Origin: Polychytrium aggregatum
Lineage: Eukaryota; Chytridiomycota; Chytridiomycetes; Polychytriales
Reading direction: 5' to 3'
Assembly (NCBI RefSeq): GCF_025602895.1
Contig: NW_026516266.1
Location: forward strand, 210,798 to 274,797
DNA: 64,000 bases
Position numbers and translations under genes: made by a program. The first letter of the stretch is position 1. Every line of letters starts with the position of its first letter. Under the pieces are notes generated by a model. The model saw nothing but the letters and a program-made list of their open reading frames with translations. It searched no databases and was not told the DNA's origin. Positions 39,877 through 58,249 of the stretch are shown here, piece after piece.

Positions 39877-40101
39877 GGCATGCAAAAATGGTGCTTGGAG
39901 AGGAGAGAGAGCGACGGGTGCGACGGGTGCGATGGGTGCGATGGGTGCGATGGGCTGGACACTATGAAAAAATTTCTTGTTAATAAAATGAGCGAGAACG
40001 AAAAAACGCGCTCTCGGAGCCACCTCGGTCGGCGAGAAGAGCAGTCTCCGGCGAGAGACCCCCGAGGGAAGGCGAGAAGCCTCTCGCCGTCACACACACA
40101 C

Positions 40102-40140
<39 letters not shown>

Positions 40141-40261
40141 TGCACAAGGGAGTCAAACACCTCCCATCGACCATCCCAAGAGGGATGGCAACCCCGAAGT
40201 GGACTGCCCAGAATATGGGCGACCCGGCATCCACTGTCGAAATGAACAAGATACTTACAGT
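39877..40261. other. Gap with (AC)n tract
   Basis: This is the upstream region of the I9 gene and the downstream region of the Fanzor gene. A GGGTGCGAT-type repeat lies at 39915-39955, and a long (AC)n tract broken by ACTTTGC lies at about 40085-40146. No gene is recognised. Confidence 0.7.
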
Positions 40262-42855
40262 CTATCCAGAAAGAAACGGGACAGTCACTTCCTGGCTTCT
40301 GAAGCCCGCTGACTGACTTGTAGGCCCAGCGGGTAGGCCATGGCATTGCACTCCTGTCTTCGTTGGCAATCTCTTTGTTTTTGTTGGTTTCGGGAGCACA
40401 GTCTTGAATACACCCGGCCGATCTCCTGTGGCGATGATCGACTGGCATACCGAGATCATGTTCCGTGAGGCATTGATGTCTCGATGTGTTTGTGTGATGC
40501 ATTAACTCGACTCTCAGGACAACTCCATGGTGAATCGATATCAAGATGCTCGGGTGACTCAAGTCGCTTGAATTCCCGGCAGTGTGAGCACACCTGGGAT
40601 GTGTTGAACTCGTTCACCGAGCACACATGGATCTTGGAGACGGATCGGTCTGGTGGGCGTCTCTGGTGATGGTGGAATTGCTCAAAGTACTTGGCAAACC
40701 TGAGTCTCCTGGGACTGGAAGCATATCCCTTCCCCTGTTTCCACGAGGCATTCCCAAAGGCAATCACCACTTCGGTCTCCTTTGGTGCCTGGTCGATGAC
40801 TTGCTTGCACATCTCGTGGACAGTGCGCTGTCGCTTGCCGTAGAGATCGAGTCGCTTGAATCGCCGTCGCCGGGTCAGGCTGAAGTACAGCTGTTTCTCC
40901 AGCATGTCTCCATCGAACACATGGCGAATATCTCGTAAGAAAGAAGGCACTCCAGGGATCTTGGGGCTCGGTGTGGTGCTCATCCATTTCTGCAGACCAA
41001 GGATCTTGTGGGTGCTCTGGATCCACTTGGTCGCCTGGGTGGTGCCACATCGATGCTGGTACTCCTTGTTGGAGAACGACACGATCTTCTCGTTGGCACG
41101 CTGTGCCTTGGTCACCTTGACACCGTCTTGCTCCTGGATGGTTGGTTGACCGGGTGCTCGAATGACAGCGGTGAAGATCGATCCCACACCAGGGTCGATC
41201 CCAATCCATGTGGTCCGAGAGTCGTCAATGGGACCGACCCTGGTCTGGATCTTCTTCTCGGGGGTGAGCTTGGGTGTCTTGTCCACGGGTTCTGGTTTGG
41301 CATCAGGGTCCTTCTTCTCCAGGATCTTGTATCTGAGCGTGGTGATTGAGCACCCGACCCCATCGGTGGTGATCTCGCAACCAAAGAGCTGCTTCCCCTC
41401 TTTCCTGGCACCAAAGAGTCTCGGATCCAGCTTGAAGTTGGTCTGCCAGAAGGTCTCTTGCTTTGTGGTGCCATTGACCTTGGTCTTCAGGTCGTCCCAC
41501 TTGAACCCAGTGCCAGTCTGGTATCCAAGGATCTCCCACAGTGCTGTGGTGTCGAGCTTGACATACTTGGCTCGGGCATCGCAGAGCGGGACCAAGGTGC
41601 ACTGTGCTCGAGGGACATTGTGTCGCTTCTTGGTCTGGGCAAGCCGGTCGGTCAATCGCTTGATCCGCTTCGTGTTGACAGTGATCTGCTTGCACACCTC
41701 CTCGTGCTGGGTTTGGAGATCTTTGAGTCTGTCAGCCCCGATGTGGTGGATGGGTTGACACATTTCCTCGTTCAGCCGTCCGCGCTCTCCTTTCAGATCA
41801 TCGGTCACCCTCGCGAGCCTGGGAATGATCATCTTCTGAAAGACCACCATGAAGAGGGCCTCCTTCAGGTGGGTCAGTCGAGAGACTTCACTGGCCAGAA
41901 TTGGTGCGACTTTGTACAGGTCCTGGTGGCTTTCGTACCGAAACTCATACAACTGGTCGGCATGGTGGGCGAAGGATTTTCTCAGATCACCGAGGAGTGT
42001 CTTGGAGAGGGGATTCTCCATCAGCTTCATGCACTCATCGACGTGTGTGTGCCGTTTGACATCCTTGGGAGCAATCAGGGCCAGATTGCAGAATCGACGG
42101 AGGAGAGACCAGTATCGATCAAGAATGTGGGTCTCGCAGTTGACTGCATAGGTCTTGACAGCCAAACCAAGGACCTGTGACCCAGTACCCTTTGGAAGGG
42201 ACACTGGAGGCAGGATACACGACTTTCCCCATGCACGTCGATACAGCTCATATGTGTCGAGGAGGTGCCTGTCATCTTCCGGGGTGTTCGTCCTGGCACC
42301 CACTGTTCCTGTCTGCACCATATTGAAGCACTTTCGAACAAACGCGGGTTCACTCGACGACACAGTGTGGAGGGTGATGCCCTCGTCCAAGCACCGCCTG
42401 AGATGCAGCTCCAGGAGACGAGATGCTTCGTACTGCACATGTGTCATGGCTCGGACAGTCTCCTCGATCTTGTCGTGCAAGGTATCGTTCTTGATGATGG
42501 CGTCGAGGGTGCACTTGACGGTGGAGTAGTCGGCCTTGACTTGCTCGTTTGGGCCACAGCCAGGCAAGGTAGAGCTCCAGAGTGGGTTCTTCTTGGTACA
42601 CAATGAACTGTTGCTTTTGGCATGACCCACTTGCTTGCACGTGGCACATACAGGGACCTTGGGTGCTTGGCTGACCATTTCAGCGACCGAGGCAGGGCTG
42701 CTGTCGATTCTGGCTGTGCACTTCTTGGTGAAGGGCCTAACATGGTTGGTCAGGCCACAGGAGGGACACGATTTGATAGTGGGCTTCTTGGCCACAGGAG
42801 AGTCACTGGGTGATCCCGGGTCGGGATCGGGGGGTGTCTTTCTCTTGGGAGCCAT
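40262..42855 (-). CDS. Fanzor (TnpB-like) RNA-guided nuclease, C-terminal frame shifted
   Basis: The main ORF, from ATG 42855 to the stop at 40456, is 799 residues. A basic NLS-like start (MAPKRK) precedes two zinc knuckles (CPSCGLTNHVRPFTKKC at 30-46, CATCKQVGHAKSNSSLC at 70-86). Helical and WED-like regions follow. RuvC-I is WIGIDPGVGSIFTAV (Asp near residue 554), RuvC-II region VVIAFGNASW is near 695, and the target zinc finger opens VNEFNTSQVCSHC near 755. The main frame then loses the family pattern. In the frame one base back, CITQTHRDINASRNM supplies the missing Cys and the RuvC-III Asp (40478-40480), and continues open to 40262. Fanzors are eukaryotic TnpB relatives carried by transposons and guided by an RNA from the element end. 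As sequenced, the enzyme would lack its third catalytic Asp unless a -1 shift occurs near 40499-40506. Confidence 0.9.
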
Positions 42856-43247
42856 CTGGCGAGAAAATAGCAGCGATGGCTGGTTCTTGTCAGGAACGGA
42901 GCTGGACTTTGGCACCAGACAGCTGATGGTAGTCGAACGGACGGTCGTAGGACGAAGGGGAGTGTATTCAATAGGCTAAGGGCAGGATACAAGAGGCAAG
43001 GTGAGGTGCTGGTTCTGAGGCCACAGCACCTCGTTTATATCTCTAAACGCCGTCCTTGTTCGCCGCAGATTTTTTTTCCACTACAATGGAGATTGGTTAT
43101 CTGCGACGGGGGGAGATTAGATCCGAACGTTTCCCTCGCCCGCCGGGAGGTTTCATGTCAGTGCCTTACCCAACATTGCACATCAAGGAAACAGGACACG
43201 GGTTGGGGCGCCCATGAAACCATCCACCGGGCGTGGGAACGCGGTTC
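42856..43247. other. Upstream region of the Fanzor gene
   Basis: A perfect 9-bp inverted repeat (GAGGTGCTG at 43003-43011, CAGCACCTC at 43024-43032, 12-base loop) lies 148 bases before the Fanzor ATG. It could be a regulatory hairpin or an element end. A T-rich tract lies at 43070-43078. Confidence 0.55.
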
Positions 43248-43659
43248 ATGACAGTTCTGCCCTTGGGGAAGAAAAATTCTCCTCAAAACCAGCGCATTTT
43301 GGGCTGGCAGAGATACTGTGCAGTGGCGTCCTTGATTCAGATCCAGAAACGCATCGCTCGCTCAATCAGTCGTGGGAAGACATCTTGTCAAGGTGAGTCT
43401 TGCCTGATAGCCAAACGATCATGTCATCTCGCTGACACACAGCCACGCTTGACTAGGTTTCCAACCAGAGAGATTCAGATGGTGGTGGTTCTTGTCCGCA
43501 ATCGGAGTGGAGCTTCCAACAATGATACAATTGGTCATTCTTCCACACCAATTGCCCACCACCACCGTCAATCGGCTCAAGGTGATACCAAATGCCGTCA
43601 ACCGACCATGGCCGGATTCCAACTTTTGCTGCTCCACATTCGACGTGACTTTCAGGTGA
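43248..43659 (+). CDS. Tentative two-exon gene, possible membrane protein
   Basis: This reading has an ATG at 43248, a 64-nt intron (43393-43456; GTGAGT donor, GACTAG acceptor) and a stop at 43657-43659, giving 115 residues in phase. The first exon is basic (LGWQRYCAVASLIQIQKRIA). The second has an aromatic and hydrophobic stretch (RFRWWWFLSAIGVELPTMIQ) that could be a membrane segment. The only evidence is intact phase, clean splice sites and the hydrophobic segment. I do not recognise it, and it may be a chance reading. Confidence 0.3.
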
Positions 43660-44435
43660 CCGAGATGAGCAGCCGCGAGGGGCCGGAAAAAATTGATAGT
43701 GGAGCCGTTTGGAGCTGGAGCCGTTTGGGTTGGAGTCGGCATGGTGGGAGAATGTCCGTCAGAGGAGAGTCACATGGCGCCGCCCAGCCAGCCAAGGAGC
43801 CGGCTGGAGCCGAGGCGGTGGCGATGTGTGGCGGTGGTGGCACGCCACAACAAACAGTGCATCTGTGGGAATCGAGCTGCTGGGAGACGAGGCCCGACCG
43901 AACGCAACCCAGCAGCAGCCGGGGGGGGGCAGTTTGCAATATATAACTGCGGTGTCGCAGAGATCTATATTGAAGTGTAATTGAGCCACGCCAAATATAG
44001 CAACTGCATATAGCACGATACATTGCTCCTCCGAGCTTGCAAAGTCATGCGACCAGAGCCGATGGGGGATGCGATGCGCTCGCCTCCCCCGCCTCGCCTT
44101 CTGTTTGCACATTCGCGATCGAGGGCACTCTCGCCCGAAGCCCGAGGATACTCATCTGTCTGCCCGGAGTTGTTTGCATCGCCGGCCCGAAGTTGTTTGC
44201 ATCGCCGGCCCGAAGTTGTTTGCATCGCTGGCACAGACCTTCCATCCTCTCGGCTGCTTCTGCGGTCCTCGCGGTCGCTCCATCGGCGCTGTTGTCATTT
44301 TCTTTGGCCTCGGCCACGCCGGTCTCGGCGCTTCTCTGCCCCGCACCGCCCCTCGCCGGCCCAAAATCGCCCTGTTTGCCGTCGCCCGTCCTTGGCCTTC
44401 GTCCACCCCCAGCCGCATCCCCATCCACCCACACC
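43660..44435. other. Intergenic region upstream of rhomboid gene
   Basis: This contains three copies of a 23-bp repeat (GCCCGAAGTTGTTTGCATCG plus CCG) at about 44162-44230. No gene was recognised with confidence. Confidence 0.6.
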
Positions 44436-46541: not shown

Positions 46542-47420
46542 TCATCTGGGCCAAGTGGGTGTGATGGCTTGGACATCCCGGGTATGCGGTTGCTCGTGCC
46601 CCGAATGCGTTGCGCTCGAGTCCGAGAGCGGGCGTACTGACCCGGCATGTTTGATGGCACGGGATTTTGGCCGTCTCGACGGACCCGGGCCGTCCTTGGG
46701 CAACCGAGATATAACATTGTCTTGGGCAGCGCAGGAGCACCCGGGGTGCTGATCAGAGACGAACGGGAAGCTCTTGGCGACCAAGAGCTGCAGGATCTCG
46801 TCCTCGCGGCCCTGGCTCACCCGGGCCACGATCTCGTCGAGGGCACGGACGTCGTCGAGGGCCCGATGGACGACAGGCGACAGGCCAAAGTGCTCCGATA
46901 GAGCGGCCAGGGAATGCTTCTTGAGCGGCACCATGGGTCGCAGAAACCCAACCAACGTGCAGGCCGCTCGCCAATGGGTCAGCTGCAGGCGCTGGGCCGG
47001 GCTGAGTTCGGCATTGATCATCCTCACATCGAACTTTGCGTTGTGGGCCAAGATCAAGGGAGCCACCCCTGGTCCGCAACGGTCCTGGACAAAGCCGACG
47101 ATGCGGTTCCATTGGGTGGCAAAGACGGGCGCACTCGCCACCATCTGGTCGCTAATGCCGTGGATGTGCTGGTTGGCGATATGGCTCTTGGGATTGACCA
47201 GGAGCGAGATATGTTGTGGGTTCGACCGAGTCGGGCCCGCGAAACACGAGGCCTCCTGGATCGCCATCTCGATGATTTGATTTCGCCCCGGCGAGAACCC
47301 GGTCGTTTCGGTGTCGCAGATGAACGCCTTGTACGAGACGTATCGGATGCATGCTGGCCTGGGCCGTCGTTGCGGAAGCCGGATCGCGCAAACGATGGCA
47401 CCGAGGATTCGCGGGAACAT
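46542..47420 (-). CDS. DEDDh 3'-5' exonuclease (DnaQ/RNase T fold)
   Basis: This intronless reading shows the three Exo motifs: FICDTETTGFSPGRNQIIEM (Exo I, Asp-Glu), LILAHNAKFDVRMINAEL (Exo II) and VVHRALDDVRALDEIVARV (Exo III, with the DEDDh His). The C-terminus is a low-complexity tail. The start is uncertain: MFPRILGAIVCAIRLPQRR (ATG 47420) gives an Arg-rich N-terminus that could be a mitochondrial signal. The frame stays open upstream as far as about 48140 with low-complexity Arg/Pro/Ser residues. Substrate is unknown; the family includes proofreading and RNA-trimming exonucleases. Confidence 0.8.
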   Translation of the reverse strand: MFPRILGAIVCAIRLPQRRPRPACIRYVSYKAFICDTETTGFSPGRNQIIEMAIQEASCFAGPTRSNPQHISLLVNPKSHIANQHIHGISDQMVASAPVFATQWNRIVGFVQDRCGPGVAPLILAHNAKFDVRMINAELSPAQRLQLTHWRAACTLVGFLRPMVPLKKHSLAALSEHFGLSPVVHRALDDVRALDEIVARVSQGREDEILQLLVAKSFPFVSDQHPGCSCAAQDNVISRLPKDGPGPSRRPKSRAIKHAGSVRPLSDSSATHSGHEQPHTRDVQAITPTWPR

Positions 47421-48238
47421 TTGGGGCTGATCGGCGTGAGATGGAGAAGGAGCCAAGGACTTGCGAGGGCGGATCGATGCTTCTTCAGGGGGGCCACGCC
47501 CACCTGCATCATGTTCGTGTTGTCGCTGATAGGCCAGCCGCGATTCGGACCCAGGAAATGCAGGGATCATGACAGGCGGATGTGTTCTCGGCCTCGATGG
47601 AGCAAGCAGATGGACGAATGTCTCGAGGCAAAGAAGTAGAGGGTCGGATTGCGAAAAGTAACTGCGAATTCGTGCAGCTGGGAGGGGGAAGGCGAGTTTC
47701 CATGCGAGAGCGACGGAAACACTGGCACATAGGGACGGAGCTGGAACCGGACGCAATGGCGGCCTGCGGCGAGCCATTCGCCCGGTCCGGTGTCTGTTTG
47801 TGCGGTACAGGTTTGCAATGCTGGGAAAGCAAAAGGCGGCAGCATCATGGCCATGAAGTCGACGACTGGCGTGGCAGGGAAAGCGATGCACTGTATTGGG
47901 GCGACATGGAACTCGACGGGCCGACACAGATTGGAAGATCCAAAGCTGACGGGGTGACGAGGTTGGCGAGGTGCAACAGCAGCATGCAGAAAGGCCGCAA
48001 CGGAACCGGGCCTTCATCAGAGTGCGTTGACAAGCGACAGGGATCAAGGACGGCCCGGCGATGGAGATCGAAAGCGACTCGGCGACGAAATGCAGGCGAT
48101 CCAATCGGTCGAGAAACGGAATAAGCAAGAAAGAACCCATCACCCGGATCCTTGCGAGCCAGCTGTGCAGAGTCCCTCGGGGACAGGATGTGTGTGAAGC
48201 GAGGGCCGCGACAGCCGGCTCATCCGATCAACACCCTC
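47421..48238. other. Gap with an upstream-open minus-strand frame
   Basis: The exonuclease frame remains open through most of this region, which may include a longer N-terminus or only its promoter and leader. It also carries the 3' end of Rheb. No other gene was recognised. Confidence 0.5.
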
Positions 48239-55146: not shown

Positions 55147-55549
55147 ATCCCGCCTCCTGCATCTCGCTCCTGCGTCTCGCTCCTGCATCTCGCCCGCATC
55201 GTGCTTCTGTGTTCCTCGGCCAGCTGCGCAGCACTCTCGCCACAGCGCGTTTGTCACACTGCGGTGCGACACCCCAGTGTCCCTTTGTCTCCGGATCGAG
55301 TGTGCGATCCCGCCGGATCCAGCCAGCTCGGCTGCTCAGCCACCCCGCGCCACACGGCTTCTCCAGCAGACTCGATCCGCACTCGATCCACCCCCGATCC
55401 GCACTCGGTCCGCACTCGATCCACTCCTCACATAAAGCCTGCCCGAATTCCGCGAGATCTTGTCAACAACACACCGCCGTTTCGTCGAGCCGGCTCTCCC
55501 TCCACTCTCCCGAAATCTCCGTTCACACCACGCCGTTGCCGCCGTCGCC
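53864..55549. other. 1.7-kb divergent intergenic region
   Basis: This lies between the IQ-CH-DH gene (minus) and CWC22 (plus). It has a purine tract with A12 at about 54030-54060, C/G-rich chance frames, a (GCT)n tract at 55112-55146, and short GATCCGCACTC-type repeats at about 55370-55430 just upstream of CWC22. No coding evidence was found on either strand. Confidence 0.6.
55112..55146. repeat. (GCT)n trinucleotide repeat
   Basis: About 11 to 12 perfect GCT units lie about 400 bases upstream of the CWC22 ATG, probably in its leader or promoter. Confidence 0.95.
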
Positions 55550-58249
55550 ATGGCCACAGCGTCTGCAGTGCCCTCAGGTAGCGTCCTTGATCTCTCGTCG
55601 CTCCCGCCCTATCCCTGCGATCGCCTCGACACCCCTGCACCGCCTCGTCTGGATCGATTGCTCGATGTGGTCGCTAATGCGCTCAGGTCCTCCAACCGCG
55701 CGATCGCTGCAGGCTCGAGCCTCCTCGGCCGAGCGGGTGGTGCCTACATCCCGCCGGCCAAGCTCCGCGCCATGCAGGCCGCCATCACCGACAAGTCAAG
55801 CGCAGAGTACCAGAGGATGAGCTGGGAGGCCCTGAAGAAGAGCATCAACGGCCTGATCAACAAAGTCAACACCTCCAACATCAAAAACATCGTCCCGGAG
55901 CTGTTCTCGGAAAACCTGATTCGTGGCCGTGGCCTGCTGTGTCGGAGCATCATGAAGGCCCAGTCCGTGTCGCTCCCCTACACCCCTGTTCTAGCTGCCC
56001 TCATCGCCGTCATCAACACCAAGCTCCCCCAGATCGGCGAGCTTCTCCTCGTGCGGCTGATAGCCCAGTTCCGCAGGGCTTACAAGCGCAACGACAAGAC
56101 TATCTGCATCGCCAGCACAAAGTTCCTCGGTCACCTCGTCAACCAAAAGGTCGTCCAGGAAATCCTCGCCCTCCAGATCCTGATGCTGCTGCTCGAGCAC
56201 CCCACCGACGACTCGGTCGAGGTCGCCGTCGGCTTCATGAAGGAGGTCGGCGCCTTCCTCACCGAGGTCTCTCCGCGTGGCACCAATGCCGTCTTTGAGC
56301 GCTTCCGCGGCATCCTCCACGAGGGCCAGATCGACAAGCGAACCCAGTACATGGTCGAAGTGCTCTTCCAGATCCGAAAGGACAAGTTCAAGGATAATGC
56401 CGCTGTCGAGGAGGACCTCGACCTGGTCGATGAACAGGATCAGATCACACACTACAAGCTGCTCGACGACGAAGCCAGCATCGAAGATGGGCTCAATGTC
56501 TTCAAGTTCGACCCCAATTACCTCGAGAACGAGGCTAGATACCAGCAAATCAAGCGTGAGATCCTCGGCGACGATGACGAGGACGATGATGAAGATGAAG
56601 ATGGCGACGATGAGAGCAGCGACGGCGACGAGAGCGACGACGCCGAAGCTGGTGACGAAAGGGCACCCTCGACCGAGCAGCTTCAGCAGCAAATGCAGAT
56701 CCACGACCAGACCAACACCAATCTCATCAATCTCCGTCGCGCCATCTACCTCACAATCATGTCCAGCTTGAACTTTGAAGAATGTGCCCACAAGATCCTC
56801 AAGCTGAAGATCCAGCCTGGCCAGGAGTCCGAGGTCTGCGACATGATCATCGAGTGCTGCTCCCAGGAGCGCACCTACATCAGCTTTTATGGTCTTTTGG
56901 GCGAGCGTTTCGCCAAGATCGACAGAGTCTGGGCCGACAATTTTGCCCAGTGCTTCGAACGCACCTATCAAACCATCCACCGCTACGAGACCAACCGTCT
57001 GCGCAACATTTCAAAGTACTTTGCCCACCTTCTGGCCTCCGATGCCCTCACCTGGGAGGTCTTTGCGCTGATCCGCATCACCGAGCAAGACACCACCTCG
57101 AGCTCCCGTATCTTTATCAAGATCCTGCTGCAGGAACTCAACGAATCGATGGGCCTGCCGAAGCTGAAGCAGCGCCTCGAGGACCCGTATATGGTCATTA
57201 CCGTCAACTCCGAGCACGGCTCCGTCACCCGCGGTGCCTTTGACGGCCTCTTCCCCAAGGACAATCCGCGAAATACGCGCTTTGCCATCAACTACTTCAC
57301 TAGCATCAACCTCGGCGGCCTGACCGAAGACCTGCGTGAGCACCTCAAAAACGCACCAAAGCTGATCATGGCTCAGCAGCAGCAAGTCGAGAGTTCCGAC
57401 TCGTCGTCTTCGGATTCAGACTCGGATTCAGGCTCAGACTCGGATTCAGGCTCAGACTCGGATTCAGGCTCGGACTCGGAATCAGACTCGGAATCGGAAT
57501 CGGGCTCAGATTCATCCAGCTCCAGTGCGTCCTCTCGAAACGATCGCCGCAGCCGTCCCAAGTCTGCTCCAAGAAAACAGCGATCACCCAGCCCACCGCC
57601 GCGCGAGAGTGCTCGTCGCCGCAGCCCCGATGCTGCCCCCGCTCCGAGAGCCCCGGAGCGAGTCCCGGAGCGTGCCGCACGATCCCCACGCAGCGACCGT
57701 AGCCCGGCTGCCCGCTCAGGCGGACCTCGTGGCGATCGACGACCTCCTGTGCGCGACTTGGATCGACCAAGCGACCGGAGAGGCTCGCCACGACGATTCC
57801 AAAACCGCTCACCTCCAGTGCGCCGAGGCTCGCCCGCGCGGGACCCTGCTCGGAGGCGCTACGATAGCCCTCCTCGCCGGCAGCGCCGTGACTCGCGCTC
57901 GCCCGATTCGCGTCGCCGTCGCCGATCTCCCGGCGGCGATTCAAACGATGACCGGCAGCTGCGCAAGAGGCCACGAGAAGACGAACACCGGTCCCGCAGC
58001 CGCTCTCGGGACGAGCGTGGTCCCCAAAGGCGACCTCGATACCGCTCGCTCTCCCGGTCGAGCTCTGCCTCTGCTTCTGGATCTGGCTCTGGATCGTCCG
58101 GCTCGGGTTCCCGTTCGCGCTCCAGATCAAGCTCGGGCGGCTCTTCTCGCTCGCGGTCCCAGGACCGAAGCCGCCCGGGTAATCGCCGCCCACGCAGTCC
58201 GTCTGGCTCTCCGAGACGACGAAGACGCAGCTACTCCCGCTCGCCCTGA
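55550..58249 (+). CDS. CWC22: CWC22, spliceosome factor (MIF4G-MA3-RS)
   Basis: A single exon of 899 residues starts at [40 protein letters not shown] precedes a MIF4G domain (about residues 90-275; [20 protein letters not shown], then [20 protein letters not shown]). [20 protein letters not shown] is followed by an acidic stretch (about 340-372). The MA3 domain (about 390-515) contains [20 protein letters not shown]. After [20 protein letters not shown] the tail is a long Asp-Ser and Arg-Ser rich region (about 615-899). CWC22 recruits eIF4A3 to spliceosomes, seeding the exon-junction complex, and is needed for the first splicing step. An RS tail of this size is animal-like rather than yeast-like. 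It is unusual among neighbours in lacking introns. Confidence 0.96.

Follow-up and report, generated by a model that had tools for sequence, protein, structure and literature searches.

Fanzor proteins can be recognised by two fingerprints, DPG and an alternative glutamate, which are defined in PMC10711439. According to PMC10432273, Spizellomyces punctatus holds 134 ghosts beside 42 Fanzor loci, and guide RNAs of ghost loci worked with SpuFz1; in its discussion, that article describes what Fanzor cutting is for as unknown. Here we describe a Fanzor1 gene of Polychytrium aggregatum in which the zinc-ribbon/RuvC-III segment has probably been exchanged for a version found in short, protein-less relatives of the gene. 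The gene (copy L009, C380) lies in a stretch of 64,000 nucleotides, which we refer to as the window.

The gene is a Fanzor1 according to its DPG motif, its alternative glutamate and the Fanzor fold of its protein, the latter seen in a structure comparison with a model built from only 10 relatives. Its minus-strand ORF (Table 1) extends over 819 codons (40456-42915) if the GTG start at 42915 is used. The initial annotation had reported that the 799-residue frame loses its zinc-ribbon/RuvC-III end and that the motifs further upstream are intact, and the translation of 40456-42915 agrees: RuvC-I, the alternative glutamate and the first knuckle are all in frame, after which the protein reads SPWSCPESRVNASHKHIETSMPHGT up to the stop codon, with LDIDSPWSCPESRVNASHKHIETSMPHGT as its terminus. 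Likewise, the frame one base back (CITQTHRDINASRNM) holds RuvC-III together with the missing cysteine and stays open to 40262, as had been described. The DPG motif was found and, in a pattern test, the alternative glutamate, but not the in-frame CxxC...CxxC zinc finger with the RuvC-III aspartate. Sister copies such as L012 have the complete zinc finger/RuvC-III arrangement, with a 22-residue spacer that exceeds the published 12-18, and PF07282 scored 38.7 bits in L012 versus 19 bits in the window copy (cut-off 26.3). The window protein thus lacks the second knuckle and RuvC-III, and from the conservation of these parts it would be expected to be nuclease-dead. A sequence search of PDB chains recovered no Fanzor, and none of 7684 candidates among 5.8 billion proteins matched the whole window protein at E <= 1e-3; residues 540-830 of L012 gave 15 matches at this threshold.

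Table 1. Features of the Fanzor1 element in the window.
Feature	Position	Strand	Basis or remark
Mobile element bearing the gene, 3742 bp, ends CACTAT...ATAGTG	39960-43701	(-)	identity to other copies stops approximately here
Left end, CACTATCAATTTTTTCCG	43684-43701	(-)	genome matches
Fanzor1 ORF	40456-42855	(-)	799 codons from ATG at 42855
RuvC-I D-P-G	41188-41196	(-)	sequence and comparison with relatives
Alternative RuvC-II glutamate, six residues N-terminal to the first CxxC	40609-40611	(-)	E-FNTSQV-CSHC
First zinc knuckle, CSHC	40579-40590	(-)	sequence and relatives
Ghost-type tract, probably a replacement, about 49 bp	40486-40534	(-)	comparison with sister copies
Cys codons inside the tract	TGT 40519-40521, TGC 40499-40501	(-)	17 nt apart versus 6, if the TGT codons encode the same Cys
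HRDINASRNM (RuvC-III), frame one base back	40457-40486	(-)	translation
TGTCCCGTTTCTTTCTGG	40266-40283	(-)	common to the right part of short Fanzor derivatives
Open tail 3' of RuvC-III, frame one base back	40262-40459	(-)	65 codons from an ATG

An alignment with sister copies revealed the nature of the lesion. Intact sisters and outside relatives follow the pattern (K)PHFVRxC..C-x-T-x-W(N/D)RD(I/V)NA, and where the segment is undamaged in sisters, the sequence is CSHC...LDIEKPHFVRSCASCHTLWDRDINA(A/S)RNM apart from slight variations. Most sister copies have RDINA(A/S)RNM in their main frame, so the RDINAS in the downstream frame of the window copy is not a chance occurrence. Ten relatives from other sources (23-32% overall identity) all have (P/T)H(F/Y)VRxC at the position of the tract, and WNRD(V/I)NA is found in seven of them, the remaining three ending or changing there. 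The tract of the window copy, on the other hand, differs from the sisters as one block and not by a point change. It has neither KPHFVRxC nor W(N/D)RD, and the CxxC spacing is lost; three codons are gone so that the first cysteine codon comes 9 nt earlier, and the stretch between the two cysteine codons is 11 nt longer, provided that the TGT codons denote the same cysteine; downstream the lengths agree. MAFFT placed the gaps of this tract at different positions in two alignments. It had been proposed that one additional base near 40499-40506 would restore the family pattern, but this would yield C-x6-C instead of CxxC, and a single-base lesion is therefore rejected; the alignments with the sister copies equally rule out the loss of a single base.

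The initial annotation had also suggested comparing this site in other copies of the assembly. This comparison showed the tract in 6 of the 32 copies read, at four insertion sites with different flanks, two of which were assembled with both alleles. In a 30-copy alignment the different block between LDI(D/E) and RDINA appears in L009 (the window copy), L010, L019 and L023, and two further tract-bearing places are C375 (L049) and C408 (L050). Both members of the same-site pair C380 (window)/C35 (elements 99.86% alike, flanks 100%) and of the pair C132/C375 (elements 99.46%, flanks 100 and 99.83%) have the tract; C118 and C408 are the other two sites. Because it recurs in alleles and at four sites, a local read error, which had been envisaged as one explanation, is rejected. 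A programmed frameshift yielding a full-length protein has a negligible chance of being correct: the downstream frame is open and conserved, but 26 of the 32 copies have no such tract, a TAA stop lies just 5' of the TGC codon in the other frame, joining the two frames would restore neither CxxC nor KPHFVR, and 40456-40540 contains no zero-frame slippery heptamer X XXY YYZ, the rule for programmed frameshift sites.

When the first half of the tract, TGGAGTTGTCCTGAGAGTCGAG, was searched against the genome, 97 matches were obtained (<=3 mismatches; reversed control 0), six of them exact and all six in full-length tract-bearing copies. Eight of the 91 inexact places were read, and proved to be seven short Fanzor derivatives and one longer, rearranged copy (L046, C124). 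The short derivatives consist of a leader or the beginning of the ORF followed by fragments of the Fanzor 3' end. Three of five carry the repeat TGTCCCGTTTCTTTCTGG or its kin at their right side and the other two a form shorter by one base; no CACTAT ends were seen near the five that were read at 4-5 kb. The ghost-type second half has 83 genome matches, full-length copies among them, and the undamaged segment has 267. Fold z values against simple shuffles were -1.89 for L054, -3.81 for L053, -1.74 for the intact L012 and -1.26 for the window copy, and an Rfam search of the window returned no match. A source of the tract elsewhere in the element or window was considered and discarded, as eight comparisons gave no convincing candidate, one of them (around 58679) scoring 36 versus a shuffled maximum of 35.

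Ghost-type sequence also occurs in frame. On the reverse strand of C386 (L059), a coding first half is combined with a ghost-type second half (CASCTTLTHRDINAS / CASCTTLTHRDINASRNM), and this chimera keeps the motif residues of the zinc/RuvC-III segment; C268 (L060) carries a third, broken form. Across 28 copies with 344 two-state sites, four-gamete conflict, which repeated mutation could likewise produce, affected 343 of 1276 site pairs less than 20 bp apart, 1068 of 1686 at 20-50 bp, 1645 of 2202 at 50-100 bp and 29299 of 38229 at more than 500 bp, and the tract by itself does not account for this increase with distance. A shared-run test, which took in the tract columns and thereby lengthened the runs of tract-bearing pairs, gave the lowest p for 153 of 378 pairs and a p under 0.01 for 287; in this and the four-gamete analysis the same-site pairs L012/L016, L013/L018, L019/L049, L025/L032 and L034/L035 were counted separately. 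In seven same-site pairs the flanks are 99.17-100% alike and the elements 96.74-99.86%, with the lower value for the elements in every pair. L025 is 99.70% like L026 from an unrelated site versus 96.74% like its own allele L032. Stops at codon 444 (L015, L030) and at codon 427 (L022, L035) are each shared by copies that the tree does not place as sisters. The mosaic sisters, the elements that differ more than their flanks and the likeness of L025 and L026 argue for ectopic gene conversion, and the mosaic could partly reflect short-read polishing of repeats. Among the literature matches listed for Fanzor and gene conversion, no title concerned Fanzor evolution.

Two further observations concern variation among the sisters. 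They carry alternative short blocks, NSSLCTKK/NTPKCRFY and HHIGADRLKD/ERRQSDQYNA, in many combinations. Moreover, one member of the same-site pair L019/L049 has a 63-bp in-frame insertion between GCACCC repeats that the other lacks; this accounts for a gap, examined in the single copy L049, that had been considered as an intron in the 5' part.

We consider it probable that the zinc-ribbon/RuvC-III segment of the window gene was replaced by a version from protein-less, ghost-like derivatives. A full-length gene may have been broken near its 3' end and repaired from a ghost-like or tract-bearing copy, the tract entering by ectopic gene conversion or template switching. The tract would shift the downstream codons out of frame, so that the protein loses the second knuckle and RuvC-III; judged by the conservation of these parts, this should end cutting. 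The dead element would be tolerated and could persist because undamaged copies can presumably serve in trans. The direction could also be the reverse, with the ghost-like elements descending from an old full-length copy that carried the tract. The initial designation of the gene as a recently inactivated Fanzor needs to be divided: it is a Fanzor1 without the second knuckle and RuvC-III, whereas recent activity, which the undamaged sisters make likely, applies to the family and is not implied for this copy.

The main rival is the simple descent of one dead copy, to which we assign a small but appreciable chance. One full-length copy, in which the tract had evolved or to which it had been added, would have reached four sites by mobilisation in trans and given rise to diverging descendants, the ghosts possibly being deletion products of this lineage. 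In line with this scenario, all six full-length tract-bearing copies share TGTCCTGAG, which is absent from each of the 91 inexact matches, and the copy on C118 (L023) is an intermediate with a window-type first half and a ghost-like second half. On the other hand, L009, L019 and L050, from three sites, have exactly the same tract, whereas alignment of their genes over 2520 columns shows 163, 181 and 226 differences. The best tree requires three changes of tract state, but a single clade of tract-bearing copies is not rejected (AU p 0.228), so that the tract may have spread by descent. Ka/Ks 5' of the tract is 0.21-0.26 among six pairs of tract-bearing sites. The lineage of the window copy has accumulated about 95 changes (0.04 x 2375); 80-100 random changes would be expected to leave about 3 to 4 stops and the window copy has none, a count in which changes before and after the arrival of the tract are indistinguishable. 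Both values speak against simple descent, but this point is weakened by the damaged sisters, whose Ka/Ks is about as low (median 0.31, 28 pairs); the median of the undamaged copies is 0.29 (78 pairs; the 13 copies classed as undamaged include L037, without a knuckle Cys, and L038, with an early frame difference). Ka/Ks therefore says little on present constraint as opposed to history or exchange. Frame differences within the first 40 columns of the alignment are found in L019, L034, L035, L038, L049 and L050.

Two other explanations appear less likely than descent. An artefact of assembly or polishing, in which ghost-derived short reads had "corrected" full-length copies, is improbable. The repeat family is large, the assembly comprises 64.7 Mb in 418 contigs, and mis-polishing could also yield a mosaic whose pieces are tens of bases long. 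However, six places, including two same-site pairs that were assembled apart, carry the tract together with its length changes, and the letters that these copies share occur in none of the 91 other matches. Slighter still is the prospect that the truncated protein has been kept by selection as an RNA-guided DNA binder that does not cut. Both the window copy and its allele have an open frame throughout, RuvC-I and the alternative glutamate included, and the low Ka/Ks among tract-bearing sites could be understood in this way, but the similar median of the damaged sisters and the further stop at codon 600 in L019 argue against such a role.

The lesion itself is ordinary decay of a mobile gene; its origin is less ordinary. 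Tracts of tens of bases have been exchanged among the Fanzor copies of this chytrid and, seemingly, with protein-less ghost-like relatives. One genome thereby offers a natural series of coding, in-frame chimeric, out-of-frame chimeric and ghost-like forms, so that a contribution of Fanzor cutting to conversion between copies becomes testable. As a speculative and rather doubtful extension, RNA-guided Fanzor cuts at related copies might drive ectopic conversion. Genes and ghosts would then belong to a single recombining pool, with dead copies bearing ghost-type ends arising recurrently and persisting as guide-RNA sources or dead binders.

Several observations from the same genome are recorded here in their own right. 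L002, L003, L006 and L007 (C124, C379) have an open frame of 477 codons. It begins like an IS607-type TnpA, with an HTH and the beginning of a serine recombinase, and runs straight into a Fanzor2-like nuclease; it is possibly a TnpA-Fanzor2 fusion, as far as the sequence suggests. Five P. aggregatum proteins hold pieces 82-94% identical to part of L012. In P0121, P0122 and P0127, F-box, male-sterility/AMP-binding and kinase domains are joined to Fanzor pieces 91-94% identical to L012, and these joins are either gene-model errors or real captures. Host genes in the window encode a protein with an RNase T-type exonuclease domain (46542-48143, minus strand) and a CWC22-like MIF4G/MA3 protein (55460-58249, plus strand), the latter with two plant-named first matches followed by chytrids at 69-73% identity among the best 120 of 4336. 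A GT-rich repeat 3' of the Fanzor gene (window 40100-40160) varies in length between alleles and other copies.

CACTA-type ends and 3-bp duplications are hallmarks of CACTA/EnSpm transposons, and both were found for the Fanzor element. Its left end has 119 genome matches (<=1 mismatch; reversed control 0). In a duplication survey that included three loci without a recognised end, 22 distinct sites had both ends, and at 16 of these an exact 3-bp duplication adjoins CACTAT...ATAGTG; of the others, one has 4 bp, two have 2 bp, the window site among them, and three have none. Unlike CACTA/EnSpm transposons, the Fanzor elements read show no transposase. Transposase_21 matched at 29 places in the genome, and visual comparison with the CACTAT ends among the matches listed showed none of these places closer to such an end than the length of one element. 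Of three left-end stretches inspected by eye, one was a derivative of 1.6 kb and another a Fanzor element of 3.7 kb, while the third had no recognised right end.

Compared with Fanzor1 proteins such as SpuFz1 of S. punctatus, to which it is 13-14% identical in structure alignments, the window copy is missing the second CxxC as well as an in-frame RuvC-III aspartate. Bacterial TldR proteins are nuclease-dead relatives of TnpB that act as RNA-guided DNA binders without cutting. The window protein resembles them as a relative of RNA-guided nucleases without a complete active site, whereas its guide, binding and regulation are hypothetical. The short derivatives resemble the ghost Spu-1 loci of S. 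punctatus, which are likewise short and numerous, have no Fanzor ORF and share their 3' part with a Fanzor element. Unlike these, the short elements of P. aggregatum retain pieces of the Fanzor coding end and have at most a putative guide RNA, and their ghost-type sequence is also present inside full-length Fanzor genes.
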